From positions 1-39,945 of the forward strand of contig LDWW01000032.1 in assembly GCA_001045525.1 (NCBI GenBank): a stretch of DNA of 39,945 nt. The letters run 5' to 3'. Source of the stretch: Chitinispirillum alkaliphilum (GTDB taxonomy: Bacteria > Fibrobacterota > Chitinivibrionia > Chitinivibrionales > Chitinispirillaceae). The notes beneath the pieces are model-generated. The model was not told the origin of the DNA. It made no database searches and saw nothing but the letters and a program-made list of their open reading frames with translations. The position numbers and the translations under genes were made by a program. Shown piece after piece: positions 2,799 through 39,425 of the stretch; position 1 is the stretch's first letter, and each line of letters starts with the position of its first letter.

Positions 2799-2991
2799 GT
2801 TTCTAACTATACTACTAATGAACGATACATTTATTGTTTTAGTTTTTTAATTACTATCAAAAACTTTTGACCATACTGTTTGTTTCAAATTGATACACCG
2901 ATGTATTAATAGCGATCAGTTGCAGATAGCGCGTTCCATTTTTCAGGGGAAAAGTTGGCTGTTTCTGCCCATTTTTCCTATCCTTCTGGTA

Positions 2992-9863: not shown

Positions 9864-9871
9864 TAGTTACC

Positions 9872-10786: not shown

Positions 10787-10787
10787 G

Positions 10788-12926: not shown

Positions 12927-12982
12927 TTTTAGTGCACCCCTTTTTTCTTAGAATCACACACTAATGTCTTACCCTATTGTCT

Positions 12983-13011: not shown

Positions 13012-13303
13012 CACTTATATTTATTAAAGCACTCATTTTTTTTCTTACAATATCAATTGCCAAAAATCAAAGGGCAAACTACAAGAGCGAAGAACCCAAT
13101 ATGCATGAACTGAAAAATGTGGAAAAAAATCGATTTGGCAGGAAGGGGTAAAAAGGGCGAGGACCAAATTAAGTCTTGTTATTGATATGCCTGAAACCGT
13201 CCGGGATTATATTATCAAACGCAAAAGATAACGTTCAATCAGACTGAGAAGAGATGCTACAAACAGTTGTAATTGGTTTTATTCTCCTGCCCCTAATACT
13301 ATA
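13012..13303. other. Intergenic region with a decayed short reading frame
   Basis: No intact gene is seen. On the plus strand an ATG at 13101 opens a frame that breaks at an A7 run near 13123; one frame over it continues to a stop at 13231 with a protein-like tail (LVIDMPETVRDYIIKRKR). This could be the end of a lost gene or a chance opening of about 40 codons; it matches no family I know. Confidence 0.3.
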
Positions 13304-13333
13304 ATTGAGTGGATTATCCAATCCACTCAATTT
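13304..13333 (-). terminator. Terminator of the binding-protein/kinase operon
   Basis: A perfect 13-bp inverted repeat (AATTGAGTGGATT at 13304-13316, complement 13321-13333) with a 4-nt loop lies 25 nt past the last gene of the minus operon. The U tract on the minus side is poor (TATAGTATT), so termination may be imperfect, but the stem is the strongest in this gap. Confidence 0.65.
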
Positions 13334-13357
13334 ATGGGGCACGATCAATCTAGTTGT

Positions 13358-14329
13358 TTATTCCAAAATTCTGTCAACACGTCCTAAGCGTTCGCTGTCC
13401 AAACCCCATCGAATTCTATTAGCCCTGTTTGCATTTAGAACTGATGTAATAGAGATTAGAGGTTCAAAACCGATATTTTCAAGTTCTTCCCCGTCTTCAA
13501 AAAATTGAAATATTTGTCCAGCCAACTGTGATCCCATATGCAAATAGTCTGGCTGAGTAACAAATACGCCCAGATTTGCACTTGTTTCAACAAACCTTTC
13601 AAGTGGGACCACAACCGGAATTCTTCTGGAAGCAATAGTTCTTATCCAAAAGTCCCTGAGAGTTGCAGCATTAAGGATAGCATTGTCAGCAAGCATCCAC
13701 AGCACTTCAACACCATCTCTTCGCATTTGTCTCCAGCCCGCATTAAGACCTCGCAAGGCATCCCTTTCACTCAGTTCAGATCCGGAATTGTCACAATCCA
13801 AACAGTATGAAATAATCTCAATCTCTTCTCGTGCGAGCAATCGTTGGGACTCCATGATATCTTCCTGGAAATCCTTTCGATAAAAGACACCTACTTTTGA
13901 AAAATCCCTTTCTGAAATTATTCTGAAATTGGTGAAAGTTGTATACCCCGGAACCTCAAACCTGATACCAACAGTATTCTCCAGGTTTTTTGCAGTTTTT
14001 TCAACCTGTAGTGTCATCAAGACAAACTTAGGCATTTGAACAAATTTTTCATTTTCATTCTGAAAATGTTCAGCAAACCTTACAGCTTTTGCATCCATCA
14101 AAATTAAAGCACTTGGATCATATTTACTAGCAAGGTCGAACGCCTCTTCGGGTGATACTTTGTCTACATCAATTACTTCTATTTCATATTCACCCATCAA
14201 TTCGTCTTCTATGCCTCTTAGGGCAAGCTTAAAGTTTTCAGATGAAGGCATAAGGGCTACAAAGCTAACACTCTCTGCCCAGCTATGAGCCCACAGTACA
14301 GTAATTATTATTATAAGCCGGGCTATCAT
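13358..14329 (-). CDS. Periplasmic ABC-type substrate-binding-like protein (TrpX/PF04392-like)
   Basis: The 323-aa product begins with a Sec signal peptide (MIARLIIIITVLWAHSWA, cleavage near residue 18). The rest has the two-lobe pattern of type I periplasmic binding proteins, resembling the ABC_sub_bind/TrpX family (YDPSALILMDAKAV, then VGVFYRKDFQE, WMLADNAILN, IPVVVPLERFVETSANLGVFV near the C-terminus). No ABC permease or ATPase is nearby, so it probably senses rather than transports. The ATG at 14329 is preferred over an in-frame GTG at 14341 because GGAGG lies 5 nt before it. It overlaps the preceding gene by 4 nt (ATGA). The ligand is unknown. Confidence 0.75.
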   Translation of the reverse strand: MIARLIIIITVLWAHSWAESVSFVALMPSSENFKLALRGIEDELMGEYEIEVIDVDKVSPEEAFDLASKYDPSALILMDAKAVRFAEHFQNENEKFVQMPKFVLMTLQVEKTAKNLENTVGIRFEVPGYTTFTNFRIISERDFSKVGVFYRKDFQEDIMESQRLLAREEIEIISYCLDCDNSGSELSERDALRGLNAGWRQMRRDGVEVLWMLADNAILNAATLRDFWIRTIASRRIPVVVPLERFVETSANLGVFVTQPDYLHMGSQLAGQIFQFFEDGEELENIGFEPLISITSVLNANRANRIRWGLDSERLGRVDRILE

Positions 14330-15084
14330 TTGTCCCTCCACTGTTGTATGTCTAGTGTCTGAAATGTTTCACTACTCCCTGATCGCAATTTTGTAAGAAC
14401 TTCCTGAGCTATTTCACCATTTTTGGATGCAATAACAGGAAGATTTGAAACTAATGCCGCAGATTCGACCACAGTAAAAAGGTCCAATCGAGTTTCAGTT
14501 TTAAGCAGAGCTAGTTCTGATTCAGAAACAACAATAATGTCTACGGCTTCCATACCAAGCAATGTAAGCAAATCCTCTCTCTTGTTAACCCTTCGAATTC
14601 TGCCAAATTCACTGCCAAATGTTTTGGTCAAAAAATCACTTATATTACGACGACCAAGGAAATCGAGTATTCCGACACGCAACTCAGGTATACTGTTAGT
14701 GTTTACATCTGAATCTTTGGCAATAACAAAAAACTTTTCACCAATTCTGTTATTTGACACACCCCTCAACAAGATTTTGTAATCGGTATTAAGTTCGATG
14801 AAGACTCCGGGTGCAATCACCGGGGCATTTGGATGTTCATCGATGAACTGCTGAAGGTCCCGAATTCTTCCAAATGCCCGTACATCCACATCACCAAGCA
14901 ACGATATAAAGTCATCCTGAATTGTTTGTGGCGACTCGTCAGTGTTTAAATAAATCAGCAGTGGTGTTTGAGCATAACACAGTGACATACCTACAAGTAA
15001 ATGTACCACCGATAAGTTGATAAGCATTTTCCTGTAAGCATTACCACATTTTTTAACAGTGAGTGTAGTTTTCAACTTACGCAT
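14326..15084 (-). CDS. Exported periplasmic-binding-protein-like protein (PhnD/PBP2-like)
   Basis: The 252-aa product has a long basic n-region and a signal-peptide core (about residues 20-38, ending CYAQ), then a fold resembling type II binding proteins of the phosphonate/phosphate group: a strand-helix start (LLIYLNTDESPQTIQDDF), a central PELRVGILDFLGRRNISDFL hinge-like block and SELALLKTETRLDLFTVVES. It is shorter than typical PhnD. It starts 6 nt after the membrane kinase gene and overlaps the TrpX-like gene, so the three are one unit: two periplasmic sensors for one kinase is the natural reading. The start has AGGAT 5 nt upstream. The ligand is unknown. Confidence 0.65.
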   Translation of the reverse strand: MRKLKTTLTVKKCGNAYRKMLINLSVVHLLVGMSLCYAQTPLLIYLNTDESPQTIQDDFISLLGDVDVRAFGRIRDLQQFIDEHPNAPVIAPGVFIELNTDYKILLRGVSNNRIGEKFFVIAKDSDVNTNSIPELRVGILDFLGRRNISDFLTKTFGSEFGRIRRVNKREDLLTLLGMEAVDIIVVSESELALLKTETRLDLFTVVESAALVSNLPVIASKNGEIAQEVLTKLRSGSSETFQTLDIQQWRDK

Positions 15085-15090
15085 AATATC

Positions 15091-17448
15091 CTATCTTGGT
15101 ATAATTATAGTGAATGTTGAGCCATTTCCAACATGTGATTCGACTGTAATTTCTCCGCCAACTTTGTTCAGATTATTCTTTACAACATCCATCCCCACCC
15201 CTCTTCCCGATATGTGGGATATTTCTTCTTTTGTTGATAATCCCGGATGAAAGATGTATGCAATCTTTTCATCCTCTGACAAGGTTTGCGGATTATCACA
15301 AAGCCCCAGTGATGTTACTTTGTTCATTAATTTTTCTGTATCGATTCCTTTACCATTATCAGAAATTTTTATTTTAATATTATTTTCTGCAAATTCCACA
15401 TTAAAAGTTACTGTACCAGGTCCCTTACCTTTCTCAGTTCTCTCTTCTATACTTTCAATACCATGGTCAACAGCATTACGAATGATGTGAAGAAGAGATT
15501 CTTCAACATTGTGAAAGACGTCTGGTGGAACTTCTAGGTCAGCTGGATTTACCACAAACTGAACCTCTTTACCCAATGCATGTGCTACTCGTTCTATAGT
15601 TTTTTTAAATTTGTTAACAACAGATTCAAGTGAACGGTAGTTTAAGGTTTCACAAAGGTTTGAAAGCTCACTAACCCGGCTGTCACTTGCGCTGTTTGCA
15701 AGTTTATCTGCAATGACAGAAATTTGTCTGATTTTATGCATCGGTACAGCTACCAGTTGTGTATCTTTCTTACCGTAGAGTAAAAGTATTTTCTCCTGAA
15801 CCTGGTTGAGCCCATATGTAATTTCTTCAAGACCTTGTTTTAAATCAAGCAAGAGTTTATATCCATAAGCCCCGCCAGATGAGTTAAACAGCTTTTCAAG
15901 AATATTTTCTGCATTGTGAGCGATACGTGTAATACTATCAAATCCATAAGACCCGGCATTTCCTTTAATCGTGTGTAGATCCCTGTAGAGCAGGTTGAAA
16001 TCCTCCCTGCTGAGTTTGACATCCACACCTTCTTCAGCACTTGTCGGATCACCGGATTTATCGAATATTTCATCAAGTTTATCTGTTAGAGTATTCGCTC
16101 TGTTACGTGCATCTTCCATAAAGTCGTTAATTTCATCCTGAGGATTATTTGCAATACCTAAGATAGTCTTCATTTCTGCTTCATGGCGAACACGTTCCTG
16201 GTTCATCCTTTCCTCTATACGGCGATTTTCCGTCAGGTCAATCGCAAGAACCATTATCTTACTCAAATTATTGTTTTTGTCAAATATTTTTTGATAATGA
16301 ACTTTTATAAATCTTGTATCATCTTCTTCAGATGATTTCAACTCCAGCTCCTGAACAGGAGAAAGGCGAACGAGCTTGTTCCATCTTTGTGTCTGGTGAC
16401 GCTGCTTAACCAATTGAACCCACTCATTGAATAAACGTTTCTGCTCAGCATCAAGACGAAATATGTTCTCCAAAGTACAGGATGCAATATCGTCTACCAT
16501 GAGTATTCTGTTAGCACTGAGAGAATACTCTTCATTTACAGTACCATCCAAATTAAATGTAAACAATCCCTGCTCAATATTGTTCATTATATCCCTGACC
16601 TGCTGCATCTTCTCGTCAACAAGATCCTGCAGACCCTCTGTAAACTTTTTTATCGTGCGCCTCATAGAGTCAAATGTTTCAGCCAATTCACCTACTTCAT
16701 CATTGCTTTCTGGTTTGATTTTTATGCTGTAGTTACCCTCAGAAATTGTCTTAGCACTTGCTGCAAGACTGTGTATTGGCCTGGTGATCTTAACAGCGTT
16801 TTTCTTGGAAGCAATATATCCGGAATAGATGGCCATACCGGCAAGCGATGTTAGTGCAAACAAGATAAGCATTGTGAATCTGCGGCTTGATCTTTTAGCT
16901 TCCTCCAGTGATCTTCTCATATTTGCAGTACTTAAGCCATACCGAATGAACCCTAAGGGTTCATCAAATATCATAACAGGAGAGGCGAACTCAATAATTT
17001 CTTCCCCATCTTCGGATATAAGCCGCTTATACGAATCAATTTCCAGCATAGATGCCCATATTGACATAGTATCGTCCAGGATACCCGGCCCATCAATTTC
17101 CCCTGATTCATTATTTGCGTTTGCGTATACCCAGGGACGTGAATCAATATCCATATATATACCGTAACTTATATCTTCATCATCTTTAACCGTATAGGAA
17201 ACAAGAGATCTTACCTCTGTAATCGCATTATCATCGGCCATCCCCCTCATAGCAATAGAGTTGTTGATTACCAGAGTTTTCCCTTTAGCCATTAGAGAGT
17301 TAATGATATTGGTTTCAGTAAGCTCAAGATTCTTTCTTGCAGTGTAGAGATTGATTACCAGCACAACAGATATCACGATCATAAATATTATTGAGATTAT
17401 GAAAGTTGAACTTTTCACTAATTTGGATTCAATACTTACAAATTTCAT
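15091..17448 (-). CDS. Membrane HAMP-PAS-Hpt-HATPase sensor kinase (CheA-like, no CheW)
   Basis: The 785-aa protein has TM1 (about 13-35), an extracytoplasmic domain (about 36-190), TM2 (about 191-213), HAMP (about 214-268, with PESNDEVGELAETFDSM), a PAS-like region (about 285-410), Hpt with H492 (LHTIKGNAGSYGF) and a CheA-type ATPase (N-box around N658, G1 SDNGKGID at 696-703, G2 SGRGVGMD at 747-754). It ends after the ATPase, so again no CheW-like domain. Hpt in place of HisKA makes it a membrane relative of the CheX-PAS kinase at 5766. It heads the operon with two periplasmic binding proteins, which probably present ligands to its external domain. AAGGA precedes the ATG. Confidence 0.88.
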   Translation of the reverse strand: MKFVSIESKLVKSSTFIISIIFMIVISVVLVINLYTARKNLELTETNIINSLMAKGKTLVINNSIAMRGMADDNAITEVRSLVSYTVKDDEDISYGIYMDIDSRPWVYANANNESGEIDGPGILDDTMSIWASMLEIDSYKRLISEDGEEIIEFASPVMIFDEPLGFIRYGLSTANMRRSLEEAKRSSRRFTMLILFALTSLAGMAIYSGYIASKKNAVKITRPIHSLAASAKTISEGNYSIKIKPESNDEVGELAETFDSMRRTIKKFTEGLQDLVDEKMQQVRDIMNNIEQGLFTFNLDGTVNEEYSLSANRILMVDDIASCTLENIFRLDAEQKRLFNEWVQLVKQRHQTQRWNKLVRLSPVQELELKSSEEDDTRFIKVHYQKIFDKNNNLSKIMVLAIDLTENRRIEERMNQERVRHEAEMKTILGIANNPQDEINDFMEDARNRANTLTDKLDEIFDKSGDPTSAEEGVDVKLSREDFNLLYRDLHTIKGNAGSYGFDSITRIAHNAENILEKLFNSSGGAYGYKLLLDLKQGLEEITYGLNQVQEKILLLYGKKDTQLVAVPMHKIRQISVIADKLANSASDSRVSELSNLCETLNYRSLESVVNKFKKTIERVAHALGKEVQFVVNPADLEVPPDVFHNVEESLLHIIRNAVDHGIESIEERTEKGKGPGTVTFNVEFAENNIKIKISDNGKGIDTEKLMNKVTSLGLCDNPQTLSEDEKIAYIFHPGLSTKEEISHISGRGVGMDVVKNNLNKVGGEITVESHVGNGSTFTIIIPR

Positions 17449-18765: not shown

Positions 18766-18839
18766 GTTTTCCGGTTAGCAGTTTGTAATTTGGTGTCACA
18801 CTCAGAACCTTGTTATACAATGGATCCATTTTTGCAGTA

Positions 18840-18904: not shown

Positions 18905-19792
18905 ATGAACAAATTAACCGAACACCAAATCAGATCTGCTGTTCACCCCGATCTTCCTTCAAGGTACGGTATTGCCGTTTTTGGCGGTTTGCTGTTTTTG
19001 TTTGCAATTATTGTTTTTTTAACAATTGATCAAGCCACAGAAGTTTTCTCTATTCTACTTATTACTTTTCTTCTGCATTTTGTTTTTACCCGCACATTAA
19101 AAGCAAGTCTTTTTGCCAATTCTGTTCAGGTATCAGATATTAATTTCCCCGAAATAAAAAAGATAACAGAGGAGATAAAGGAAGCATTTTCCTGTAGTGA
19201 GGAGTTTGAGATTTTTATTTTGAATGGCACCGGTTTTAACACGGTATACCACAAATTCCTTCGCTCCAATATACTTATACTTGGTTCCGATATGGTTGTG
19301 GATATGCTAAAAACAGAAAACAGGTCTCAGCTTATCTGGGCTATCTCGAGGTTTGTCGGTGCATTAACATCTAAGCAGCTTGGCCCGGTTTATTTGAATG
19401 CTCTGCTGCAAAGTGTTAATCAATTTGCCCTTTTCAACCTTATTACAGCTCCCTACGAACGTGCAACCCAACTTACGGGGGATAATCTTGGAATGCTCGC
19501 TACCGGAGATATAGAACAGATTCTGGGTGTGTTCAATAAATTTCTGGTTGGTACTGACTTATCAGAAAAGGTAAATATCACCGGGTTGATTAGCCAAAAA
19601 AAAGAACTTCAGAACAGTTTCTTTTCATTTTTGGCAAGAGCCGGGTCGACTCACCCTCATCTCATTGACAGACATCTCAACATTCTGGCATTCGCAAGGA
19701 TTGCCTATCCCGAAGAGTTTGAAAAATTCATCTCTAAATACGAGCGATCTTTTACTTTAGAAATAGGAAGAGTACTGCCCAGGTACAGATAA
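18905..19792 (+). CDS. M48 (HtpX)-like membrane protein lacking catalytic residues
   Basis: The 295-aa protein has two N-terminal membrane segments (about 22-41 and 44-62) and a domain with M48 metallopeptidase shape: a FEIFILNGTGFNTVY-like strand pair, a helix where HExxH should be (WAISRFVGAL, about 145-154), the downstream YERATQLTGDNLGMLATGD block corresponding to the usual E-x-x-AD-xxGL segment (third zinc ligand replaced by Q189), and STHPHLIDR near 247-255, which matches the family's THPxxxxR. All three zinc ligands are gone, so it should be a pseudo-peptidase, possibly a binding or regulatory protein. There is no obvious ribosome site before the ATG. It lies convergent to DUF6328. Confidence 0.6.
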   Translation: MNKLTEHQIRSAVHPDLPSRYGIAVFGGLLFLFAIIVFLTIDQATEVFSILLITFLLHFVFTRTLKASLFANSVQVSDINFPEIKKITEEIKEAFSCSEEFEIFILNGTGFNTVYHKFLRSNILILGSDMVVDMLKTENRSQLIWAISRFVGALTSKQLGPVYLNALLQSVNQFALFNLITAPYERATQLTGDNLGMLATGDIEQILGVFNKFLVGTDLSEKVNITGLISQKKELQNSFFSFLARAGSTHPHLIDRHLNILAFARIAYPEEFEKFISKYERSFTLEIGRVLPRYR

Positions 19793-20315: not shown

Positions 20316-20505
20316 ACATTATCCATCATTTTGTGATCGGTATGGGAACAGAACAATGCTTTTATCCGGATTAAATACTACATAAAGCATGCCACAGTTA
20401 ATGGGTTCCATCAAATTTTGTCGGGTTTTGATATTCAGACACCAAATAAGCTGCAACATCCCACTGATCCAACATGCCTGCCCCCTGCTTGCGAATCATA
20501 AAGCT

Positions 20506-20765
20506 CATACAAACACATCATACAAACACATCATACAAACACATCATACAAACACATCATACAAACACATCATACAAACACATCATACAAACACATCATA
20601 CAAACACATCATACAAACACATCATACAAACACATCATACAAACACATCATACAAACACATCATACAAACACATCATACAAACACATCATACAAACACAT
20701 CATACAAACACATCATACAAACGCATCATACAAACGCATCATACAAACGCATCATACAAATAAAT
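20506..20765. repeat. 13-bp tandem repeat array overlapping the end of the Nramp-like gene
   Basis: Sixteen exact copies of CATACAAACACAT (20506-20713) are followed by three copies of CATACAAACGCAT (20714-20752) and one degenerate copy (20753-20765, ending TAAAT). Because 13 is not a multiple of 3, the plus strand is open in all frames, creating spurious long frames. There are no spacers, so it is not a CRISPR. The variant and degenerate copies lie inside the 3' end of the transporter gene, so the array appears to have grown outward from coding sequence. Confidence 0.95.
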
Positions 20766-22112
20766 CAACCCAATAATGATATAAATAAAACCGGATACAT
20801 ACATTACCCAGGAGATTACTCTTCCGGGCCTAAGCTCAGCAGGCAAATTTTTTACATTTACATATTGTGTAAGGAGTACAATAACTGGCATATGAATCGC
20901 GGCTATGATTCCTCCGAATGATAAAAGCGCCACAGGTTCACGCACAATAAGAAAGACTACAAGTGGTATTAGAGCAGTAACTGTTGAAGCATAGAAATTC
21001 TTCAGATAAAGCCTGTTATTGACGAAGTTTATTAACCACGAATCAGAGGTTCCTTTTTTTAAGTCTGATGGCAACAGAATCAGTGTGGCATCGGCAAATG
21101 ACCTTCCCCAGCCGTCCTGATTTGAGAGGATGGTACCGAAAAGGGCAATAAAAATTCCTACTATTAAAAGCCAAAACCCAGCTCTTCCCCACACTGCTTC
21201 AAGAAGAGTTGTGAGATCTCTTGCGACCTCTATCCCCTCGGGAATAATCCCCCTCGGAAGAAGAAGTTCAGTTCCAAGAACCAGAAACGCCAGAGTTACA
21301 ATTCCAGCTGCTATAACCGCAATCGCAGAAGAAGTACTCATTATATGATTCCAGATCCGAAGTCTTCTCCTGATTTCTTCACTGGATATATCGGTTTGAT
21401 TTTTCTGCGTTGCGCTCTCTCCGGTCACTTTCCCTCCATACCCTTTCTCTGCAACCCAATAGGAATACCACAGAATACCTGCGGCACCCGCAAGCATAAA
21501 CCCAATCCAGGGCAAAAGAAAATAGAAATCAAAGTCTGGGGGAATATTAGGGATGAGACCAGCAACCGGTTCGGCCGAAGATGGAAAAACAACTACAGCA
21601 GTTACAACGGTTACCAACACCAAAACGGCTGCAAGCAAAGAGGCAATCTTTTCCACACCCTTATACTTGCCAAGCAGGACAAGAATTATTGAAACGATAA
21701 TCATGGCCGTTCCATAAAACCAATGAGCCCCGGGCAAGGCAATCATCAGCGCACTTCCTATAAGGGATGCAATTCCGGAAACGGTAAATACTGCGGCAAA
21801 GAACTGCGGTATAATTATGAACCACACCGCCCACCCTCTGGGCCCGGGAATCGTACTGTACCCATCAAGAATAGTTCGCCCGGTAACCACGGTAAAACGA
21901 CCGATCTCACGAATCCATACCCATTGAAAAAAAATTACCACAAACACCACCCAGGCCAGACTATACCCATATCGTCCACCTACCCTGGGAGTAAATAAAA
22001 CCGAACCGGACCCCACAGATGACACCATCCAGAGAAGCCCCGGACCATACCAGGAGAAACGTTGAAAAAAACCTCCGGGAGGTTGTGGGGAATATTCCCG
22101 TTCATTTTGCAT
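20739..22112 (-). CDS. Nramp-family-like transporter with altered metal-site motifs
   Basis: The 457-aa integral membrane protein has about 11 hydrophobic helices. The first matches Nramp TM1 (WYGPGLLWMVSSVGSGSVL, then GGRYGYSLAW), and FIALFGTILSNQDGWGRSFAD matches the family's later conserved loop. The metal-binding DPGN of TM1 reads GSGS, and the MPH of TM6 is absent (AGAAGILWYSYWVAEKG), so classical Mn/Fe transport is unlikely and the substrate is unknown. The last four codons and stop lie inside the 13-bp repeat array. It is 63 nt after the small membrane protein gene, so it is the end of the SDR operon. AGGAG is 10-11 nt before the ATG. Confidence 0.7.
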   Translation of the reverse strand: MQNEREYSPQPPGGFFQRFSWYGPGLLWMVSSVGSGSVLFTPRVGGRYGYSLAWVVFVVIFFQWVWIREIGRFTVVTGRTILDGYSTIPGPRGWAVWFIIIPQFFAAVFTVSGIASLIGSALMIALPGAHWFYGTAMIIVSIILVLLGKYKGVEKIASLLAAVLVLVTVVTAVVVFPSSAEPVAGLIPNIPPDFDFYFLLPWIGFMLAGAAGILWYSYWVAEKGYGGKVTGESATQKNQTDISSEEIRRRLRIWNHIMSTSSAIAVIAAGIVTLAFLVLGTELLLPRGIIPEGIEVARDLTTLLEAVWGRAGFWLLIVGIFIALFGTILSNQDGWGRSFADATLILLPSDLKKGTSDSWLINFVNNRLYLKNFYASTVTALIPLVVFLIVREPVALLSFGGIIAAIHMPVIVLLTQYVNVKNLPAELRPGRVISWVMYVSGFIYIIIGLIYLYDAFV

Positions 22113-22510: not shown

Positions 22511-23422
22511 TTATATGCTGCTGAAATTAAACCCTGTAGGTGCCAGAACTTCTCCTGTATAATACCGTGAATCAGTTGAAGCCAGAAATACAAAACTTGG
22601 GGCAAGTTCAGCAGGTTGTGCCGGACGCTTCCAAAACGTATTTGCACCAAATCCCCCTACAAACTGCTCATCCCGTGTAGCAGGTATCAAGGGAGTCCAA
22701 ACCGGTCCGGGAGCAATACAGTTAACCCGTATTCCTTTATCAGCCAATAACTGGGACATTGATTGAGTGAAATTATGGATTGCGGCTTTGGTACAGGAAT
22801 AATCAATCAGCTGAGGATGCCCCATCATGGCAACAACAGAACCAACATTGATTATACAATCCCCGGCGTTCATGTGTTTCAGAGACTCCTGAGTTGTCCA
22901 GAAAAAGGACATGATATTGGTACGAAATGTCTGATCCAGCTGCTCAGGAGAGATTTCCATGAAATTCTGAGACTCCATGTGAAACGCTGCGTTATTAACC
23001 AAAATATTGAGTGTGCCAAACTTATTTACCGTGCGCTCAACCAAATCACGGCAATAATGACTGTCCCTGATATCACCACTCAGGGCCAACCCCTGACTAC
23101 CCGATTTTTCTATCCAATACAAGGTCTCTTCAGCATCCTTGTGTTCGTTTAGATATGAGATCACCACATCTGCACCCTCCCTGGCAAATGCGATTGCTGC
23201 CGCCCGGCCTATTCCACTGTCCCCACCGGTTATCAAAGCTACTTTCCCCTGTAATTTTGATCCTCCAACATAACTCTGCTCTCCATGATCCGCTTGGGGA
23301 TGCATGTTTTCATCTGTCCCGGGCCACTCCTGTATCTGCTCCGGTGGCCCTTCTCTAAGCAACTCATTTTCGACAAAGGGATTGAAATCAACATTCAATC
23401 CATGGTGCATCTGTTCCGGCAT
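22511..23422 (-). CDS. Short-chain dehydrogenase/reductase of the YghA/GsiB-associated stress type
   Basis: The 303-aa SDR shows TGGDSGIGR (residues 65-73, NAD(P) binding), NNAA (143-146) and the catalytic set S195-Y208-K212 (YSCTK). The 50-60 residue N-terminal extension rich in P, E and Q (PPEQIQEWPGTDENMHPQADHGEQSY in part) is typical of the YghA / general stress protein 39 group. Substrate specificity is not defined. AAGGGAG lies 6-7 nt before the ATG. It is the first gene of an apparent operon with the holin-like and Nramp-like genes, behind a sigma54-like element at 23482-23498. Confidence 0.88.
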   Translation of the reverse strand: MPEQMHHGLNVDFNPFVENELLREGPPEQIQEWPGTDENMHPQADHGEQSYVGGSKLQGKVALITGGDSGIGRAAAIAFAREGADVVISYLNEHKDAEETLYWIEKSGSQGLALSGDIRDSHYCRDLVERTVNKFGTLNILVNNAAFHMESQNFMEISPEQLDQTFRTNIMSFFWTTQESLKHMNAGDCIINVGSVVAMMGHPQLIDYSCTKAAIHNFTQSMSQLLADKGIRVNCIAPGPVWTPLIPATRDEQFVGGFGANTFWKRPAQPAELAPSFVFLASTDSRYYTGEVLAPTGFNFSSI

Positions 23423-23481: not shown

Positions 23482-23498
23482 TGCAAAATATGATCCAA
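23482..23498 (-). promoter_or_regulatory. Candidate sigma54 promoter of the SDR operon
   Basis: On the minus strand the bases are TTGGATCATATTTTGCA: TTGG, ten nucleotides between the GG (23495-23496) and GC (23483-23484), and a perfect TTTGCA -12 element. The predicted start near 23471 leaves about 50 nt to the ATG. The -24 element lacks the canonical CA after GG. Confidence 0.55.
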
Positions 23499-24190
23499 GC
23501 CCAGACTGATTGGTGGCACCGAAATTGCCCCTATGAAAGCAGCATCGCCAAAGATATGATTTTCACTTTCCCATACATGAAAAGAATTTTCCATTTTGGG
23601 AAGAAAATCCATCTGCCCTTTTTTCTAATTCAGATTTTCTCTGGCACACCACAGTCTTTATAAATTTCTTCACTTCGACTCAACAAAACGGAAGAAAAAT
23701 GACTTATCCGAACAAAAAAAACTGCCCGGTTATGTTTACCATCGGGTACAAGGGGTGGGACCTCATTCGGGGAAAATATCTGGAGATTTTGGATTCGACC
23801 GAAAAATCAAACGGGTTTAACCTGCCCTTTTTTTGTAGACATCAGAATTCATAAAAGTGCACGGGCGGGTGGTTTCAGCGGACGCGCATTTGAGAATCTG
23901 GTAGGCTCCACTCCCCATGGCTGATGTTTTTGAACACTACAGTTTTTACGCCCTGAGAGCTAAAATTTACCTCATGCAAACAGGACGCCACTTTTTCCTT
24001 CAGAAATATCATTTCCTCGCGTCCTGTTTTGTTCCAGTCCATCCAAGGATCAAAAATATATCCCCAAACAGAAAGGGGGAAATAGTTAAAAAAAACAGAT
24101 CAATTACATTGTATTTGCAGTGATACCCGGCAACCGCCCAAAACCCTTCTTACTCTTTCTATTTTGAGACATTTTCACTTTTCCCCCACT
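23499..24190. other. Intergenic, no intact gene
   Basis: About 690 nt between the SDR and DUF2267 genes. Several short frames exist on both strands but none has a ribosome site or a recognisable product. It holds a long-loop inverted repeat (listed separately) and, near 24150-24215, a pyrimidine-rich stretch of repeated TTTTTCACTTTTTC-like sequence beside the DUF2267 stop. Confidence 0.55.
23978..24029. repeat. 11-bp inverted repeat with 30-nt loop
   Basis: AAACAGGACGC (23978-23988) is exactly complementary to 24019-24029, which is followed by one further T. The loop is 30 nt. It could fold as an RNA hairpin or bind a dimeric protein. No gene ends directly before it on either strand, so a terminator role is not obvious. 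Confidence 0.5.
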
Positions 24191-24616
24191 TCATTCACTT
24201 TTTTTCACTTTTTCTCCCCATATTTCTTTTAACCCCAAAGGAAGAATCCTTCTCACATGATCTATCTCTTCATCCGGTAGCATTGAACGAATTGCCTGAA
24301 AAACTGCGATTGTAGCCTTGTGGGCAGTTTCAGGGGGTACATTTGCCTCCTCGCTCACACGGGATATAAACTGAGAGGCATCGATGTCAAGAACGGGACG
24401 ATGTCCATAATCCTCTTCAATAGCGATGCGGGGTTGAGCACTAAGGGAAGCGATTTCAGAGGGAAGAAGATCGGTTATGCGACTTGCATCCAGAGGAGGC
24501 AGTCGTTTTCTGAAGTTAAGCAGTACGGAATGAGCTACTCTTCTTTTCTCTTTTTCACTATTTGCATCCCATAATTGATCAAATTTTTCCCAAAAAGGTT
24601 GTGCTGAAGCTCTCAT
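24191..24616 (-). CDS. DUF2267 family protein
   Basis: The 141-aa protein carries the family pattern twice in tandem: helix bundle segments RRVAHSVLLNFRKRLPPLDASRITDLLPSEI (about 27-57) and AHKATIAVFQAIRSMLPDEEIDHVRRILPLGLKEIW (about 98-133). DUF2267 proteins are small helical cytoplasmic proteins of unknown function, often expressed under stress. The ATG at 24616 is preferred (AGGAG 7 nt upstream) over an in-frame GTG at 24622. Its own sigma54-like element is at 24705-24721, divergent from the one for the site-2 protease gene. Confidence 0.8.
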   Translation of the reverse strand: MRASAQPFWEKFDQLWDANSEKEKRRVAHSVLLNFRKRLPPLDASRITDLLPSEIASLSAQPRIAIEEDYGHRPVLDIDASQFISRVSEEANVPPETAHKATIAVFQAIRSMLPDEEIDHVRRILPLGLKEIWGEKVKKSE

Positions 24617-24644
24617 CCCCACTCTCCTGAAAGGTTACACTGTT

Positions 24645-24662
24645 TTTGGAATAGCTATTGCA
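24645..24662 (+). promoter_or_regulatory. Candidate sigma54 promoter of the site-2 protease gene
   Basis: TTTGGAATAGCTATTGCA has GG and GC 10 nt apart and a perfect TTGCA -12. The predicted start near 24673 leaves a leader of about 110 nt before the ATG at 24783. The 18-mer matches the element at 39142-39159 at 16 of 18 positions. Confidence 0.55.
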
Positions 24663-24704
24663 CCTTAATATCTGAGAACGTACAGTGGTCATACATCAAC
24701 AGAA

Positions 24705-24721
24705 TGCAAACACAGGACCAG
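24705..24721 (-). promoter_or_regulatory. Candidate sigma54 promoter of DUF2267
   Basis: On the minus strand CTGGTCCTGTGTTTGCA: CTGG, ten nucleotides to GC, and TTTGCA. It crosses with the plus element at 24645-24662, so the two genes may be fired by one activator. The leader would be about 75-80 nt. Confidence 0.45.
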
Positions 24722-24782
24722 GATCAATCTCAAGCCCCGGGCTTTCCATAAAAGCACTAAACTGTTAAAGGAAAAACACACT

Positions 24783-25916
24783 ATGTTTGGACGCAAGATA
24801 CCTCTCTTTAAGCTGATGGGCTTTAAGGTAAGCGTTGACCTGAGCTGGTTTATTTTGTTTTTACTTATAGTATGGTCTCTGGCTGTTGGGCTGTTTCCGT
24901 TCTATCTGCCCGATCTAGAGACTTCAACTTACTGGTGGATGGGGATATGGGGGGCTTTTGGTCTTTTTGTCTCAATTGTTCTGCATGAATTTATGCACTC
25001 CTTTGTAGCGAGGCGGTTTGGCTTACCGATCAAGGGAATCACTCTCTTTGTTTTCGGTGGTGTGGCTGAAATGGATGATGAGCCACCCAGCGCAAAAGCT
25101 GAATTTTTCATGGCAATCGCAGGCCCGCTCACAAGTTTGGCTCTTGGGGGAATTTTCTATCTGGGTTTTGCCTTGGGTGTGCAGGCAAACTGGTCAGTTC
25201 CCCTTATTGGGATTCTTGGCTATCTTGCATTTATAAATATCATCCTTGCAATATTTAACATGCTTCCTGCATTTCCCCTCGATGGGGGCAGAGTTTTGCG
25301 CTCCATTTTATGGTATTTCAAAGGCAATATCACCTGGGCCACACGTACAAGCTCACGAATCGGGGCAGCATTCGCAGGACTGCTCATTGCCTTTGGGGTG
25401 TTATTTATTTTTGCAGGTAATTTTGTCGGTGGGTTCTGGTGGGTATTGATCGGATTTTTTCTCTGGGGTGCGGCAAATGCCTCCTACCAGCAACTTATGA
25501 TAAAGCAGCTAATGCAGGGGGAACAGGTCCGCCGTTTCATGAAAAAGGATCCGGTCACCGTGACTTCAGATCTCAGAGTTGACACACTGGTCAATGATTA
25601 CATCTACCGTTATCACTACAAGATGTTCCCGGTTGTTCAGGATGGGCATCTAAGCAGCTGCATTTCGACAAAAGAGATAAAAAACATCCCACGCGAGGAG
25701 TGGGAAAAGTACACAGTCGGTGAGGTGGCTACGGTCTGCTCAAAGGATAACGTGGTTTCTCCCGATGAAGATGTGGTCAAGGCTCTTAATACCATGAACC
25801 GCACAGGAAACAGCCGGCTTATTGTCATCGATTCTCAGGGCAACCTTGAGGGTGTGGTTACCTTAAAGGACCTGATGGATTTCTTATCCATGAAACTGGA
25901 TCTTGAGGGGAAATAA
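24783..25916 (+). CDS. Site-2-protease-type membrane metalloprotease with two CBS domains
   Basis: The 377-aa protein is an M50 rhomboid-like intramembrane zinc protease: HExxH as H68-E-F-M-H72 in a membrane helix and the second ligand motif NMLPAFPLDGGR with D167. About six membrane helices (residues 15-40, 50-70, 105-135, 140-160, 190-215, 220-235) are followed by two CBS modules (about 245-305 and 315-372), which usually bind adenine nucleotides and gate activity. No PDZ domain is present, so it is of the SpoIVFB-like CBS class rather than RseP. Substrate unknown. AAAGGA lies about 10 nt before the ATG. It is convergent with the pyrophosphatase gene. Confidence 0.92.
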   Translation: MFGRKIPLFKLMGFKVSVDLSWFILFLLIVWSLAVGLFPFYLPDLETSTYWWMGIWGAFGLFVSIVLHEFMHSFVARRFGLPIKGITLFVFGGVAEMDDEPPSAKAEFFMAIAGPLTSLALGGIFYLGFALGVQANWSVPLIGILGYLAFINIILAIFNMLPAFPLDGGRVLRSILWYFKGNITWATRTSSRIGAAFAGLLIAFGVLFIFAGNFVGGFWWVLIGFFLWGAANASYQQLMIKQLMQGEQVRRFMKKDPVTVTSDLRVDTLVNDYIYRYHYKMFPVVQDGHLSSCISTKEIKNIPREEWEKYTVGEVATVCSKDNVVSPDEDVVKALNTMNRTGNSRLIVIDSQGNLEGVVTLKDLMDFLSMKLDLEGK

Positions 25917-25930
25917 TTGTAGCAACCAAA

Positions 25931-25958
25931 AAGGGCATCGTCATTAAGAATAGCCCTT
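25931..25958 (-). terminator. Possible terminator of the pyrophosphatase gene
   Basis: AAGGGC (25931-25936) and GCCCTT (25953-25958) form a 6-bp stem with a 16-nt loop, and on the minus strand the stem runs into TTTTTGG. It is 37 nt past the pyrophosphatase stop, in the gap between convergent genes. Confidence 0.4.
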
Positions 25959-25995
25959 GAAATCAGTTTTAAAAACTCTGAATCTGAGAGAAATT

Positions 25996-27414
25996 CTATT
26001 CAACCAACCCAAGAATCGCAGGAAGCAGCTGTTTTTTACGGCTGACAATGCGGGTAGCTTCAAGTGTTCCGTCTATAGCTCGTGTGTAGGGCAAGTCATT
26101 GAGTACCTCAGTCTGCCCCGCACAAACCAGTTTACTCACCGCTCTCACGATATCTGTAACCATCAACACTACAAAATCAAAACCCCTGATTTTACACTGA
26201 TTATCCAGCTCTTGCTTTATCTCCTCCAACCTGGATCCCAGTTCAACCAAACTACCCACCTCAACCTGAGCGATGCCGAATTTTATTCCACCGGCACTGT
26301 ATTCCTTAAGATCAGCACTGACGATATCCTCTATGCTCAGGGCTGAGAGACCCGAACCGACAGAAAGCAGAGCTTCACCAAATTCGCGGTAATTACCATA
26401 TGGTATCCAATCCGAACCAAACACCATTTCAGAAAGCATTTCAGATGCTTTTTGATCGCGTGGAGTTGTGGTTGGAGAGGAATGAATCAATGTGTCGGAT
26501 AAAATTCCGGCGAGAAGCACCGCAGCAACAGGTCTGGGTGGTTCAAGACCGGCAGAAATAATTCGCTCGCTTACCAGAGTGGAAGTACTGCCGACAGTAT
26601 CGATCGTAAAAGGGATAGGTGTCTTTGTAATCTGACTTCCAAGTCTGTGGTGATCGATCACTTCCACAATATCCGCCTCTTCAATGGCACGAATCGATTG
26701 TGTGGTTTCATTGTGATCAACAAGTACAAGCTGCATCCGGGGAGGGTTGAGTATATCAGGAGAACGGCACACCCCAAAATAGGTCCCATCTTCATTGACC
26801 ACCAGAAAATCATTGCGCTCTGTTCTTGTTGCCTTACGCCGTCCGTCACGCACCCGCATCGAGACGCTGAACTTTGGTACATCTCTGTCCATGGCATCCC
26901 GGCTTGGGGCAGATAGCAAACGTGCCACCGACACACTCTCCAAATCCACAAGGTGCTCGATTTGCTGTGAGATAAAGTTAAACACACTATCACCGGTGAC
27001 TATTCCCACAGGAGTATTGTCTGACTGAACTATAGGAACTCCGATGGAATTTTTAACAGATGCTGACCAGGCTTCCCGCAAAGGGCGATCCGGCGCGACA
27101 GGTGGCAAACACCTGGCAATACGCTCAAATCTGGGAGAGGCATCGGTTAGAAATTTCGGAGCCTCCAGACCAATAAGATCCAGAAGCCATGAGGTCTGTG
27201 CGGCAATGGCTCCGGGGCGGGCCGCAATCGCATTCTTTCCGTCACGTTCCCGCAAAAGCCATGCATAACCAATAGCAGATGCGATAGAATCGGTATCGGG
27301 ATTTAGATGCCCCAGTACATGAACAGGGGTAATGGAGAGATCATTATCAATATCAGTTTTATCGATCAGAGATTTTTTCTTTTCTGCAGTATTCTGAGCA
27401 ACAACATTAGCCAT
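25996..27414 (-). CDS. ppaC: CBS-containing manganese-dependent inorganic pyrophosphatase (family II)
   Basis: Hydrolyses pyrophosphate to phosphate, drawing biosynthetic reactions forward. Family II marks in the 472-aa protein: GHLNPDTDS (H36, D40, D42, metal ligands), later VDHNE (about 238) and IDHHRLG (about 258), and a C-terminal DHHA2-type domain. Between the first DHH part and VDHNE lies a ~170-residue insert with two CBS domains (about 80-135 and 190-240), which in characterised enzymes give AMP/ADP inhibition and ATP or Ap4A activation. This is longer than the plain ~310-aa enzyme, as expected for the CBS type. AAGGAG precedes the ATG by 7 nt. Confidence 0.9.
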   Translation of the reverse strand: MANVVAQNTAEKKKSLIDKTDIDNDLSITPVHVLGHLNPDTDSIASAIGYAWLLRERDGKNAIAARPGAIAAQTSWLLDLIGLEAPKFLTDASPRFERIARCLPPVAPDRPLREAWSASVKNSIGVPIVQSDNTPVGIVTGDSVFNFISQQIEHLVDLESVSVARLLSAPSRDAMDRDVPKFSVSMRVRDGRRKATRTERNDFLVVNEDGTYFGVCRSPDILNPPRMQLVLVDHNETTQSIRAIEEADIVEVIDHHRLGSQITKTPIPFTIDTVGSTSTLVSERIISAGLEPPRPVAAVLLAGILSDTLIHSSPTTTPRDQKASEMLSEMVFGSDWIPYGNYREFGEALLSVGSGLSALSIEDIVSADLKEYSAGGIKFGIAQVEVGSLVELGSRLEEIKQELDNQCKIRGFDFVVLMVTDIVRAVSKLVCAGQTEVLNDLPYTRAIDGTLEATRIVSRKKQLLPAILGLVE

Positions 27415-27574
27415 ATCTTCTCTCCTTAAGCGGATTATCGCGATCTGCTGTTTTTACAAATTATTGAACCTTTTGTTGTCGGGATATTTTAATATAAGTG
27501 CTTACAAAGAGATAACAGAAGAAGTATTTGTATGAAGTGAAAAAAGATCACTTCAGGTTAAATTCCACTCGCTT

Positions 27575-27591
27575 TTGGCATTTAAGTTGCA
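27575..27591 (+). promoter_or_regulatory. Candidate sigma54 promoter before the conserved hypothetical gene
   Basis: TTGGCATTTAAGTTGCA matches the -24/-12 consensus almost fully: TTGGCA at -24, TTGCA at -12, GG to GC spacing of 10 nt. The predicted start is near 27602, about 67 nt before the ATG at 27669. It is the best match in the window. Confidence 0.65.
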
Positions 27592-27668: not shown

Positions 27669-28433
27669 ATGGCAGAAAATGAAAAGATCAAAATTCTTGA
27701 AAAAGGAAACATCTACTTCTTTTACCGTCCTAAAGTCGGAGTTGAACACCCTGAGGGGGAATCCCAAATCCAGAGATTCTACCTTGTGCTCAGCCCCGAA
27801 GGCAGTAGTCGGTTTCGCCTCGCAATTATGGGAAAAAAAGAGTTGCCGGATCCAGAAATTTCAGGTAAACAAAGATACTGGGGACATATTTCCACCGTTA
27901 AAAATTCGCCCAAAGCGATTCGTGAAGAACTTGGCCCGGAAAAATATGAAACAAAAACCAGAGGAGAGCGGTATATCGAAGCCGCCCGCCCGGCAGGTGA
28001 AGGTGTCTACAAGATTATATCTCACGGCAGGCATACACATCTGGCATATGTACTTGAGTTGCCCCAAAAACCATCTAACGTTCAGGAAGAATTGAATATA
28101 GAGAGTGAAGCAAGTTACATCATCTCGGTTAAAAATCCATCAAAACCCTCCCCTCCCGGTGTTGGGCTCTCAAAGGGAGAGGCACAGTTTCCCAAAAACC
28201 TTACAGAGGAATTCAGAGGCCGAAGATTTTCAGAAACAGATCCACCCGGTTTTCTCGACTACCAGGGGGCAGAATTTGTCCTGATTTCAGCATCTGAGGA
28301 TATAAAACAGGAGCTTGGAACTGAAATTGAAAAGGAAAATGAAACCGAAAATAAGGCCGATATTTTCACTGATCTCAGACTCAATAAGAAAAAACACCCG
28401 GTCAAACCTCTTTTTGAAGGAGAATGGGAATAA
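27669..28433 (+). CDS. Conserved hypothetical protein, 254 aa
   Basis: The protein is soluble, without signal peptide or membrane segments. Recognisable blocks are IYFFYRPKVGVEHPEG near the start, FYLVLSPEG, RYWGHIS, TKTRGERYIEAARPAGEGVYKI, GRHTHLAYVLELP, and a C-terminal LDYQGAEFVLI, followed by an acidic tail (residues 222-254). I recall this pattern from uncharacterised bacterial proteins but know no function. The ATG at 27669 follows GAGGT by about 10 nt. A strong sigma54-like element lies upstream. It is convergent with the paralogue at 28502 and not in an operon. Confidence 0.6.
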   Translation: MAENEKIKILEKGNIYFFYRPKVGVEHPEGESQIQRFYLVLSPEGSSRFRLAIMGKKELPDPEISGKQRYWGHISTVKNSPKAIREELGPEKYETKTRGERYIEAARPAGEGVYKIISHGRHTHLAYVLELPQKPSNVQEELNIESEASYIISVKNPSKPSPPGVGLSKGEAQFPKNLTEEFRGRRFSETDPPGFLDYQGAEFVLISASEDIKQELGTEIEKENETENKADIFTDLRLNKKKHPVKPLFEGEWE

Positions 28434-28501: not shown

Positions 28502-29908
28502 TTATCTGCTTCTCCATTTAACCGCGTACTGATTTCCAAATTTATGGATAAATTTGTCCAAAAGAGTAAGCTTTGCAGGCTCAGGTACAGGGGAACGACT
28601 TTGAAATTTCTTCCCAAAATCGAAATGGTAATTAAGTAAGCTGGAGAAATCGCGGGGGAAGGTCTTTTCGTTCACTCCAATGAAAACGCCACGTTTGCTG
28701 GCACGGCTGAGTAAATGTCGCCATTCTTCAATCGGAGTCAACCCGATTGCATCCACTCCAAAGGAAAGAAGCATAACCCCAATCTCATCCACCCGGTGTT
28801 GCGGATTATCAAGATATGAAGAGAGTTTCTGATAAAACGGATCACTGGGGAAAAGTACCCAATAAGGTATAGATCCAGTTAAAACAGTCCACCATGGCTC
28901 CAGCAACGCAAACGACTCAGCAACAAGTCGCTTTGACTCAATACCTCTTTGTTTATACCAGTACCTGTAAAGGTCTGCGACAAATGGACTCAGATCCATC
29001 GGTTCGTTGATTACAATTCTTTTTACCTTATACCCTCTGCGTTTTGCGAACTGATGGATGTCATCGCCAAGTTCGGAAGAGAATCCCCATTCTGCTTCAC
29101 AGGTAGTAATATTGGGTGTTGGCGGGTCCCAGTGATCTCGCTTGTGACTGTACTTTTGAATAAACTTCCTGACTCGTTCTCCCCCATTGAAATATTCGTC
29201 AACTCCGGCACCTCCCAACCCACCGAACTGAAAGTAGTGGCGCTCGCCGATTTGTGTTTGAGGCCAGGTTGTGGTGCAATCTGTTATAAATATTGTACCA
29301 CCAGGCTCAAGACAATCTGAAATAAATTTTTCGTAAGCAGCTCCAAGCCTGAGCTTTTTGACCCGGAAATATGCCATTGTTTTGCTCATCAACATATCGT
29401 TCACCGGATCGATCATGTGATGGAGTTCGAGATGGGGATTGGACTTTGTGAAAACCTTTCCCCACTTGCGACTCCATTCAAATTCCGATTGTATACAGTG
29501 GTTGTCGAAATGGAATCTATGTACCGGAAGGAGCGAAGTTTGTGAGAGCCATGGTATACCAAACATAGAATACAGATGTACGGCAGCCCCGTTTGAGGAT
29601 CCAATGGCGATAGCGGGAAAACATCTCTTCTCATATCTTGAAGTGACATACGCGGATATATGATCATCAATATTGGAAGAAAGGTTTTTGGGTGAGAATG
29701 TTTCCTGAACAGGTGCAATAGAATATAAAAATTCACTCAGCTGGCGCGGAAGTTGGCTCAGTATGCCAAGTAAAGCAGATATGACTATACCAACCCGCCT
29801 TGGCTGCATTTCAAGGTTGTAAAACTCTTTTCCTTTGAGGTAATTAGCAACCGCTCTCACCATCACAGAACTTGAATCGAAATTTGCTATATAATTTTCT
29901 GCTTTCAT
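28502..29908 (-). CDS. Uncharacterised ~468-aa protein, paralogue A
   Basis: No family is recognised. It aligns end to end with the gene at 37677-39077 through shared blocks: AIAIGSSNGAAVHL (about residue 100), GIPWL-TSL, H-M-DPV-D, PGG, GERHYFQFGGLGG, EYFNGG, CEAEWG, YRYWYK, SKRLVAESFAL and GSIPYWV. The GxSxG-like GSSNG could be a nucleophile elbow, but no catalytic histidine is assigned. It has no signal peptide or membrane helix. The ATG at 29908 follows AAGGG by 6 nt; an in-frame ATG at 29914 overlaps that site. It is followed 84 nt upstream by a hemerythrin gene transcribed the same way. Confidence 0.55.
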   Translation of the reverse strand: MKAENYIANFDSSSVMVRAVANYLKGKEFYNLEMQPRRVGIVISALLGILSQLPRQLSEFLYSIAPVQETFSPKNLSSNIDDHISAYVTSRYEKRCFPAIAIGSSNGAAVHLYSMFGIPWLSQTSLLPVHRFHFDNHCIQSEFEWSRKWGKVFTKSNPHLELHHMIDPVNDMLMSKTMAYFRVKKLRLGAAYEKFISDCLEPGGTIFITDCTTTWPQTQIGERHYFQFGGLGGAGVDEYFNGGERVRKFIQKYSHKRDHWDPPTPNITTCEAEWGFSSELGDDIHQFAKRRGYKVKRIVINEPMDLSPFVADLYRYWYKQRGIESKRLVAESFALLEPWWTVLTGSIPYWVLFPSDPFYQKLSSYLDNPQHRVDEIGVMLLSFGVDAIGLTPIEEWRHLLSRASKRGVFIGVNEKTFPRDFSSLLNYHFDFGKKFQSRSPVPEPAKLTLLDKFIHKFGNQYAVKWRSR

Positions 29909-29992
29909 TTCCATCCCTTGAAGATAACAATGTTTATTCGCTTCATTTTTGCCATTACCCTCAAGACGTCTGATTTCTATTGCCTACTCGTT

Positions 29993-37676: not shown

Positions 37677-39077
37677 TTATCCAAAAACCCAGTGACATCC
37701 CGATCCGGGGCGGTTTAGATGTTTCTTTAATTTCTTTACAAGCTTATTCACCTTCAACCTGGGCAGCTCGTCCCAAACCCAACCTGTTTTTTTCCACTGG
37801 CGGTGATACCTTATAAATGAAGCCATGTCAAGAGGATAAGCTTCAGGATCTATCCCAAGCAAAACCTCTCTTACCCCGCATTTTTCAGAAATCTCTTTCC
37901 ATTGCTCAAGACTAACCTGATCAATTCCTTTTATGCCGTTGGAGAGAAGTGTCAGGTATAGTTCTTCAAACTCTCTATGAGTTGAGAGATATGTCTCTAA
38001 TCCGGCTGCACTCACACGTGTATTGAATGCTAACCAATATGGTACAGCACCGTTACAAATTGTAAGATAGGGATCTATGAGTGAAAAACACTCACCGATC
38101 ACTCTTTTTGACACCAGACCGTTCTCTCTGTACCACTCTCTGTAGATACTTGCAGTTGCAGAGGAGAGGGAATCTGGTGAATCATAATCAATATGCACAA
38201 ACCTATACCCATTAACTTTACAGAATTTTTTTACATCCTCTTTGTAGCCATCGGGAGTTCCCCACTCTCCTTCGGGATACAGGGCATCGGGAACCGGAGT
38301 GTTCCATTTACTGAAATTTGAATGCTGCGAATTCAAAAACTTCTCTATCCGAGCCCCGCCCTCATAGTATTCCTTTGGCGCGGTGTCACCATAACCGCCC
38401 ACCTGGAAAAGGGAACGTTCACCGGTTGAGCAACATGGCCATTTCAATTTACAATCAAAACATATTATCATTCCCCCTGGATTCAGGTTTTCCCTGATAA
38501 AGTTGCGGAATACAAAACCCAGCCTCGGTGTCTTGAGACGAAACATCGAAACTATATATTGATGTAATCGGTCCTGAACCGGATCGTGCATCTGATGTAC
38601 AATAAGATTTTCATTGTTTTTTACCAAAACAGAGGAGATTTGTTTGCCCCGTTCCATACTTCTGATCACTAAATCAGGATCCATCCATTTTCTTGTATAT
38701 ATAAGAGAGGTGTGAGGAAGCCAGGGAATACCACAGGCCGCACACAAGTGCACTGCAGCCCCACTTGAAGACCCTACTGCTATGGCATCATAACGCTTCT
38801 GTGGATAGAGCTTAACCATCTGCTGTAATATTGCGTCAATCTTAAGATTGGAAATTTTACCCAGAGGAACACGGTCCAAATAGATGGCCAGCATAAAAAG
38901 ATACCGTCGCAACAAAAAAGGAACCCTGTTCAGAAGATGAAGTGCAGTATCGGGAATCTCGATTTTTGTGGAAACAGAAGGGAAACTTCTCTGATGGAGA
39001 CAGTTTGCAAGTGAACAAATCATCGAGTAACAGGAATCGAGTCGAGATATATATGGTAATTTCTTCTCTGAAAACAT
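37677..39077 (-). CDS. Uncharacterised 466-aa protein, paralogue B
   Basis: Diverged relative of the gene at 28502 with the same motif order: AIAVGSSSGAAVHL (about residue 101), GIPWLPHTSL, HQMHDPVQD, NPGG, GERSLFQVGGYGD, EYYEGGARI, GEWG, YREWYR, SKRVIGECFSL and GAVPYWLAF. It has no signal peptide or membrane helix. The two copies are about 30-35 percent alike by eye. Its C-terminus is basic (VNKLVKKLKKHLNRPG). The ATG at 39077 has a weak GGGATG site. A sigma54-like element lies 65 nt upstream. Function unknown. Confidence 0.55.
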   Translation of the reverse strand: MFSEKKLPYISRLDSCYSMICSLANCLHQRSFPSVSTKIEIPDTALHLLNRVPFLLRRYLFMLAIYLDRVPLGKISNLKIDAILQQMVKLYPQKRYDAIAVGSSSGAAVHLCAACGIPWLPHTSLIYTRKWMDPDLVIRSMERGKQISSVLVKNNENLIVHQMHDPVQDRLHQYIVSMFRLKTPRLGFVFRNFIRENLNPGGMIICFDCKLKWPCCSTGERSLFQVGGYGDTAPKEYYEGGARIEKFLNSQHSNFSKWNTPVPDALYPEGEWGTPDGYKEDVKKFCKVNGYRFVHIDYDSPDSLSSATASIYREWYRENGLVSKRVIGECFSLIDPYLTICNGAVPYWLAFNTRVSAAGLETYLSTHREFEELYLTLLSNGIKGIDQVSLEQWKEISEKCGVREVLLGIDPEAYPLDMASFIRYHRQWKKTGWVWDELPRLKVNKLVKKLKKHLNRPGSGCHWVFG

Positions 39078-39425
39078 ACATCATCCCGGTTACATCAGCT
39101 AAGTCATAACCCCATATGTCGTTTCACTGCCTTAATTAACCTGCAATAGGCATTCCAAATTCAGCCAATTGTAGCGTTAAGAACTCTTTATAAGAGTGTT
39201 TAAGTGTTATTTATAATCAGAAAAAATTACACGATAACCGACACGGTATCACATATAACCAATACATGTAGCGTATCTGTTATATTATGTGTGACATATA
39301 AGGCCTTAACTTTTTCGCATAGCTCCAGTTTATTTATTTCCACACTAAACAGATACCACAAAATGTTTGACACTGGTAAACATTTTAAACATTTTAAATA
39401 TGGACAATTAACGGAGGTTACTTCT
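39078..39425. other. Divergent intergenic region
   Basis: It holds the -24/-12 element for paralogue B (39142-39159) and, further right, AT-rich sequence with an imperfect dyad (TCACATATAA near 39249, TTATGTGTGA near 39286) and the repeat TAAACATTTT twice near 39380. No gene is seen here; a frame extending the Dabb gene upstream lacks a ribosome site. Confidence 0.5.
39142..39159 (-). promoter_or_regulatory. Candidate sigma54 promoter of paralogue B
   Basis: On the minus strand TTTGGAATGCCTATTGCA: TTGG, GG to GC spacing of 10 nt, perfect TTGCA. The predicted start is near 39131, 54 nt before the ATG. It matches the element of the site-2 protease gene (TTTGGAATAGCTATTGCA) at 16 of 18 positions. 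Confidence 0.55.

Follow-up and report, generated by a model that had tools for sequence, protein, structure and literature searches.

Sigma-54-type promoter elements ahead of stress and membrane-maintenance genes in Chitinispirillum alkaliphilum and its relatives

Our analysis indicates that the -24/-12 sites carried by a 39,945-nucleotide stretch of DNA (hereafter the window) from Chitinispirillum alkaliphilum, a member of the family Chitinispirillaceae in the phylum Fibrobacterota, are very probably real sigma-54 promoters that would serve an order-wide set of stress and membrane-maintenance genes with the help of at least two activators. RpoN (sigma-54) is mostly known as a sigma factor of nitrogen control and motility; here, the genes placed behind it also appear to include dnaK and hsp20. 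The analysis was computational and covered the promoter elements, their spacing and conservation, the presence of rpoN and of activators, and an upstream motif. A preliminary description of the window had proposed an undescribed RpoN regulon. The presence of rpoN, the spacing and the conservation support the RpoN promoters themselves. Of the outcomes that had been named as refuting the proposal, a lack of rpoN in the genome and a lack of site enrichment ahead of genes (checked in a genome sample) did not occur. A single co-regulated unit does not hold, since the PAC2 gene has an activator motif that is absent at the other window sites, which points to a set of RpoN promoters.

Sigma-54-type elements in the window

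The five YTGG-N8-TTGC sites already described all lie where they had been placed (within 1 nt), in the right orientation and with GG and GC 10 nt apart. They precede the nearest co-directional gene by 60-121 nt, where 50-120 nt had been given. Two good sites, at 18821-18835 (+) and 23514-23528 (+), had been overlooked, since their TGG follows A or G where the pattern requires a pyrimidine. The TGG-N8-TTGC core, with GG and GC 10 nt apart, is exact at seven window sites, and the site before the PAC2 gene has TAGC instead. The elements and genes concerned, except those of PAC2, are the following:

18821..18835 (+): -24/-12 element TGGATCCATTTTTGC, 18.0 bits, rank 8 of the upstream hits in 840 kb
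18905..19792 (+): conserved hypothetical protein, 295 aa, no Pfam match; predicted target of the 18821 element, 69 nt upstream
20739-22112: Nramp-like transporter, PF01566
22176-22475: small membrane protein, behind the SDR gene
22511..23422 (-): SDR oxidoreductase, PF13561
23483..23497 (-): -24/-12 element TGGATCATATTTTGC of the SDR gene
23514..23528 (+): divergent -24/-12 element TGGCACCGAAATTGC, back-to-back with the SDR promoter
24191..24616 (-): DUF2267 protein, PF10025, 4.5e-18
24647..24661 (+): -24/-12 element TGGAATAGCTATTGC of the site-2 protease (S2P) gene, 19.9 bits, rank 3 in 840 kb
24706..24720 (-): -24/-12 element TGGTCCTGTGTTTGC before DUF2267, 16.4 bits, facing the S2P element
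24783..25916 (+): site-2 protease (M50) with CBS domains, PF02163 and PF00571
27576..27590 (+): -24/-12 element TGGCATTTAAGTTGC of the 27669 gene, 12.8 bits
27607..27621 (-): weak opposite-strand match, below the matrix cut-off; pyrophosphatase start 192 nt away
27669..28433 (+): conserved hypothetical protein, 254 aa, no Pfam or NCBIfam match
37677..39077 (-): paralogue B, 466 aa, no Pfam match
39143..39157 (-): -24/-12 element TGGAATGCCTATTGC of paralogue B, 16.8 bits

The estimated chance rate of one site per 33 kb per strand differs little from the one per 28.7 kb observed. The window holds nine YTGG-N8-TTGC matches against 2.98 +/- 1.82 in dinucleotide shuffles, only 1 of 100 shuffles reaching nine, and the 309 matches in the 4.43 Mb of the genome predict 2.8 for the window (Poisson P 0.002). 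Besides the five sites, the matches are 19815-, 21490-, 22830- and 27607-. Those at 21490 and 22830 lie inside genes, whereas those at 27607 and 19815 look like chance matches, and the former is probably one. Furthermore, seven gene-upstream sites for 34 window genes compare with 21 for 603 genes of the genome sample described below (Fisher P 0.0003, or 0.002 without the doubtful 27607 site); this and the other P value for the window are optimistic, since the window was picked for looking interesting and not at random. The spacing and conservation tests presented below are independent of that choice.

The SDR gene, the small membrane protein gene and the Nramp-like gene, separated by gaps of 35 and 63 nt, possibly form one operon. 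To the right of 23514, about 650 bases up to 24190 carry no called gene. The divergent element might therefore serve a small RNA, or be the remnant of a divergent membrane gene that was lost. A terminator-like site at 23812 is weak and such sites are no commoner than in shuffles, and Rfam gives no match in the window. The same back-to-back arrangement is found between a second SDR gene and a Na/H exchanger gene elsewhere in the genome (L241) and at the SDR gene of the relative G027 (L242). More generally, four pairs of opposite-strand sites less than 150 bp apart lie between genes at the correct spacing versus 0-1 at other spacings. In addition, the 3' end of the Nramp-like gene carries, at 20505-20760, an array of 19.7 copies of a 13-base unit (TCATACAAACACA) that are 99% identical.

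Paralogue B is 33% identical to the product of the ORF at 28502-29914; both are about 470 aa long and have no Pfam match, and their homologues occur in only 4 of the 40 relatives searched. The window also contains a signalling cluster (4215-17448) of response regulators, an HDOD protein, a FapA-like protein and two Hpt/CheA-like kinases.

Spacing, RpoN machinery and conservation in relatives

The statistics combine the window with a genome sample of 800 kb, a fifth of the genome, in which genes were called by a home-made hexamer model; the matrices were also home-made. In this sample, TGG-Nk-TTGC occurs 21 times at most 300 nt upstream of genes for k = 8, the other values of k from 3 to 13 giving 4.1 on average. 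Hence, the enrichment upstream of genes that had been put forward as a check is seen, at the sigma-54 spacing only. A matrix ranking had likewise been suggested: with a matrix trained without the window sites, these rank 3, 8, 13, 14, 27, 33 and 42 among the upstream hits in 840 kb, rank 42 being the variant element before PAC2. Glutamine synthetase genes are classical RpoN targets, and two glutamine synthetase III genes located near activators served as positive controls. Both have a -24/-12 element and one lies beside a GAF-type activator. In the 800-kb sample, sites precede genes for, among others, two S41 envelope proteases, the protease SppA, a P-type cation ATPase, two NmrA-like oxidoreductases, DUF2254, a class I aldolase, kinases and proteins of unknown function.

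Both parts of the machinery that the preliminary description proposed to look for are present. The genome has a single rpoN (430 bits), with the RpoN box ARRTVAKYRE, and ten full-strength enhancer-binding (activator) domains, eight with GAFTGA or GSFTGA and two with GAFTDA or GAFTSA. Separately, one GAF-type activator gene (L253:7372-8925, contig C3 of G000) is interrupted by a stop codon and is either a pseudogene or an assembly error. Another activator, on contig C12 of G000, was considered as a stress activator on the basis of co-occurrence and rejected, as its presence in 32 of 41 genomes is not diagnostic.

Gene order around the S2P homologues and the other window genes shows almost no synteny with relatives, so that each window gene was followed separately. 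Outside the window, TGG-N8-TTGC is found in 17 of the 38 regions upstream of homologues of S2P, SDR, DUF2267, the 27669 family and paralogue B, every other spacing giving 0 or 1; about half of the homologues lack the element. Elements before S2P, SDR, the 27669 family and PAC2 reappear in relatives despite their rearranged gene order. For instance, an exact element precedes 10 of the 19 S2P homologues of the order that have a complete start (the window's own counted). By comparison, it precedes 2 of 79 S2P homologues from other phyla, one of which comes from a member of this order, versus 0-2 at other spacings, and the link between S2P and the element is therefore specific to this group. Exact elements are also found ahead of an SDR paralogue in the same genome and of SDR homologues in G027 and G003. 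The 27669 family has homologues in 4 of 41 genomes, this one included, and exact elements before four of its six members, in G006, G008, G027 and G000. The DUF2267 element is absent at the closest homologue (G006), and for paralogue B an exact element precedes one G006 homologue and none of those of G027 and G033. Compared with the other window sites, the one before DUF2267 and the one at 39143 are less secure.

Hsp20, dnaK, PAC2 and a predicted activator motif

In G027, contig C117 (L242-L243) carries about 15 RpoN-type elements within 36 kb of stress genes. These encode SDR, an AI-2E-like transporter (named by eye from its sequence), Hsp20, DUF2267, FKBP, pirin, a phosphatidylethanolamine-binding protein, a ZIP transporter and holin-like membrane proteins. 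A search for simple palindromic activator motifs upstream of the C. alkaliphilum sites and in this island found none above shuffles except opposite-strand RpoN sites. Since the island includes Hsp20, this family was predicted to be a target and was tested out of sample across the order. The element is present in 13 of 29 Hsp20 upstream regions (one of the 13 being in C. alkaliphilum), against 0-2 for other spacings. Moreover, most of these elements are preceded by TGTTTCA-N3-TGAAACA, usually in two copies 22-33 nt apart and located 56-113 nt before the -24. Such a position and tandem arrangement are those expected for activator binding, and we consider this sequence a predicted activator motif.

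A matrix for this motif was learnt from the Hsp20 upstream regions, and only three positions in 800 kb score at least 16 bits with it. The best match in the sample belongs to dnaK, where it precedes a -24/-12 element by 90 nt; dnaK has both element and motif in three genomes, namely C. alkaliphilum, G001 of the same genus and G006. As a side observation, dnaK lies about 6 kb from an S2P gene in two relatives (L126, L128), both with RpoN-type elements or a near match.

In the window, the motif occurs upstream of the PAC2 gene:

2881..2897: predicted activator-binding motif TGTTTCAAATTGATACA, 112 nt upstream of the PAC2 -24, 16.7 bits
2993..3007 (+): variant -24/-12 element TGGCATGCCTTTAGC before PAC2, TAGC for TTGC, 11.7 bits
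3039..4007 (+): PAC2-family protein (proteasome-assembly-chaperone-like), PF09754, 1.1e-30

A near-match one base off had been noted 30 nt before PAC2. It is indeed present, 31 nt ahead of the ATG (TTGGCATGCCTTTAGC when written with one more base, 2992-3007), and in G001 an exact element, ATGGAATGCTGTTTGC, stands at -77 of the PAC2 homologue. At the other window sites, the motif scores 4 bits or less. An activator-binding motif would be expected about 70-150 nt upstream of a sigma-54 promoter; one was found for PAC2, hsp20 and dnaK and not for the other window sites, which would therefore depend on an activator other than that of PAC2. Elsewhere in the genomes analysed, a kinase and activator pair (L258:7438-10908) is divergent from the gene of a small secreted protein that has a near RpoN element and a weak copy of the Hsp20-type motif. 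This activator is a candidate reader of TGTTTCA-N3-TGAAACA.

Proposed mechanism, alternative readings and known systems

In the mechanism that we propose, RNA polymerase carrying RpoN would bind the -24/-12 sites as a closed complex, and transcription would start only once an enhancer-binding protein, bound upstream or in solution, hydrolyses ATP and the complex opens. In this bacterium and its order, such promoters would serve S2P, SDR, DUF2267, transporters and envelope proteases. One activator probably reads TGTTTCA-N3-TGAAACA, usually as two copies two to three helical turns apart, and would drive dnaK, hsp20 and the window's PAC2, while others would drive the remaining window genes. Use in the cell, co-regulation, inducing signals and the pairing of activators with promoters are what we infer here from sequence. 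A broader and more tentative proposal is that, in Chitinispirillales, RpoN and the dedicated activator of TGTTTCA-N3-TGAAACA might be the main heat-shock switch, replacing RpoH/HrcA, with further RpoN activators controlling the window genes as part of a general stress response. None of the five sigma-70-family factors tested, of the 13 in the genome, scored above an RpoH cut-off.

The alternative that survives best, although we consider it rather unlikely, is that the promoters are real and unrelated, each gene having its own activator and purpose and no stress programme existing. It is consistent with the lack of a shared activator motif at the window sites other than PAC2 and with the range of genes that RpoN also serves here, including glutamine synthetase, a sensor kinase, a hemA-like gene and others. 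However, the window and the G027 island show sites clustered around the same families, one motif is common to dnaK, hsp20 and PAC2, and divergent pairs are frequent. It is clearly less probable that sigma-70-type promoters mainly drive these genes, the RpoN sites being minor or acting in a repressor-like manner for idle RpoN polymerase. The 13 sigma-70-family factors, five of the longest of which are RpoD-like, would provide for this; however, before dnaK of the three genomes, the best sigma-70 match reaches only 8-9 of 12 positions, no CIRCE is found within 300 nt upstream, and the -24/-12 element is conserved. Finally, chance matches in intergenic DNA, noticed because they were looked for, are very improbable and refuted as a general explanation: the 7-base core recurs often, most of its matches in the sample lie inside genes, and single sites such as 27607 and 19815 may be of this kind, but composition cannot account for enrichment and conservation at the correct spacing only.

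If sigma-54 promoters indeed serve this stress and membrane-maintenance set, then heat-shock and membrane-stress genes are expressed from ATP-gated promoters in a whole order of bacteria that is little studied and related to cellulose degraders. For genes of unclear control (S2P-CBS, DUF2267, PAC2 and the 27669 family), this would also provide promoters open to testing and an activator motif. We found no study of RpoN control of stress or heat-shock genes in Fibrobacterota in the open-access library that was searched; since such control is known or predicted in other phyla, Fibrobacterota would represent a new case.

The closest parallel is the sigma-54 regulome of Desulfovibrio vulgaris, with its activator DVU3305, in which stress genes are under sigma-54 control (PMC4641369, PMC3333781). 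As here, the promoter set, computed and partly measured in that species, includes general-stress, envelope-stress and divergent operons. However, D. vulgaris belongs to a different phylum, its general-stress targets are UspA-type and membrane proteins with a Lon-type response regulator, and the sections of these papers considered here describe no S2P/SDR/DUF2267 or dnaK set. A computed survey found GroEL, IbpA, GrpE, DnaJ and DnaK enriched for sigma-54 promoters in Planctomycetota and Bacteroidota (PMC12316311). Our results, if true, would support its prediction of RpoN-controlled chaperones in other phyla, although the text of the survey does not mention Fibrobacter and the portions considered here describe no activator motif, S2P, SDR or PAC2. 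In Escherichia coli, the small heat-shock protein gene ibpB has a sigma-54 promoter (Kuczynska-Wisnik 2001, cited in PMC4316790), which is one secondary promoter of an operon otherwise controlled by sigma-32, whereas many Hsp20 genes of the order and dnaK carry the element here. Lastly, the concept of sigma-54 as a controller of the cell exterior (PMC3162934) fits the present targets, many of which are membrane and envelope genes; unlike in that concept, cytoplasmic chaperones and oxidoreductases also belong to the set.
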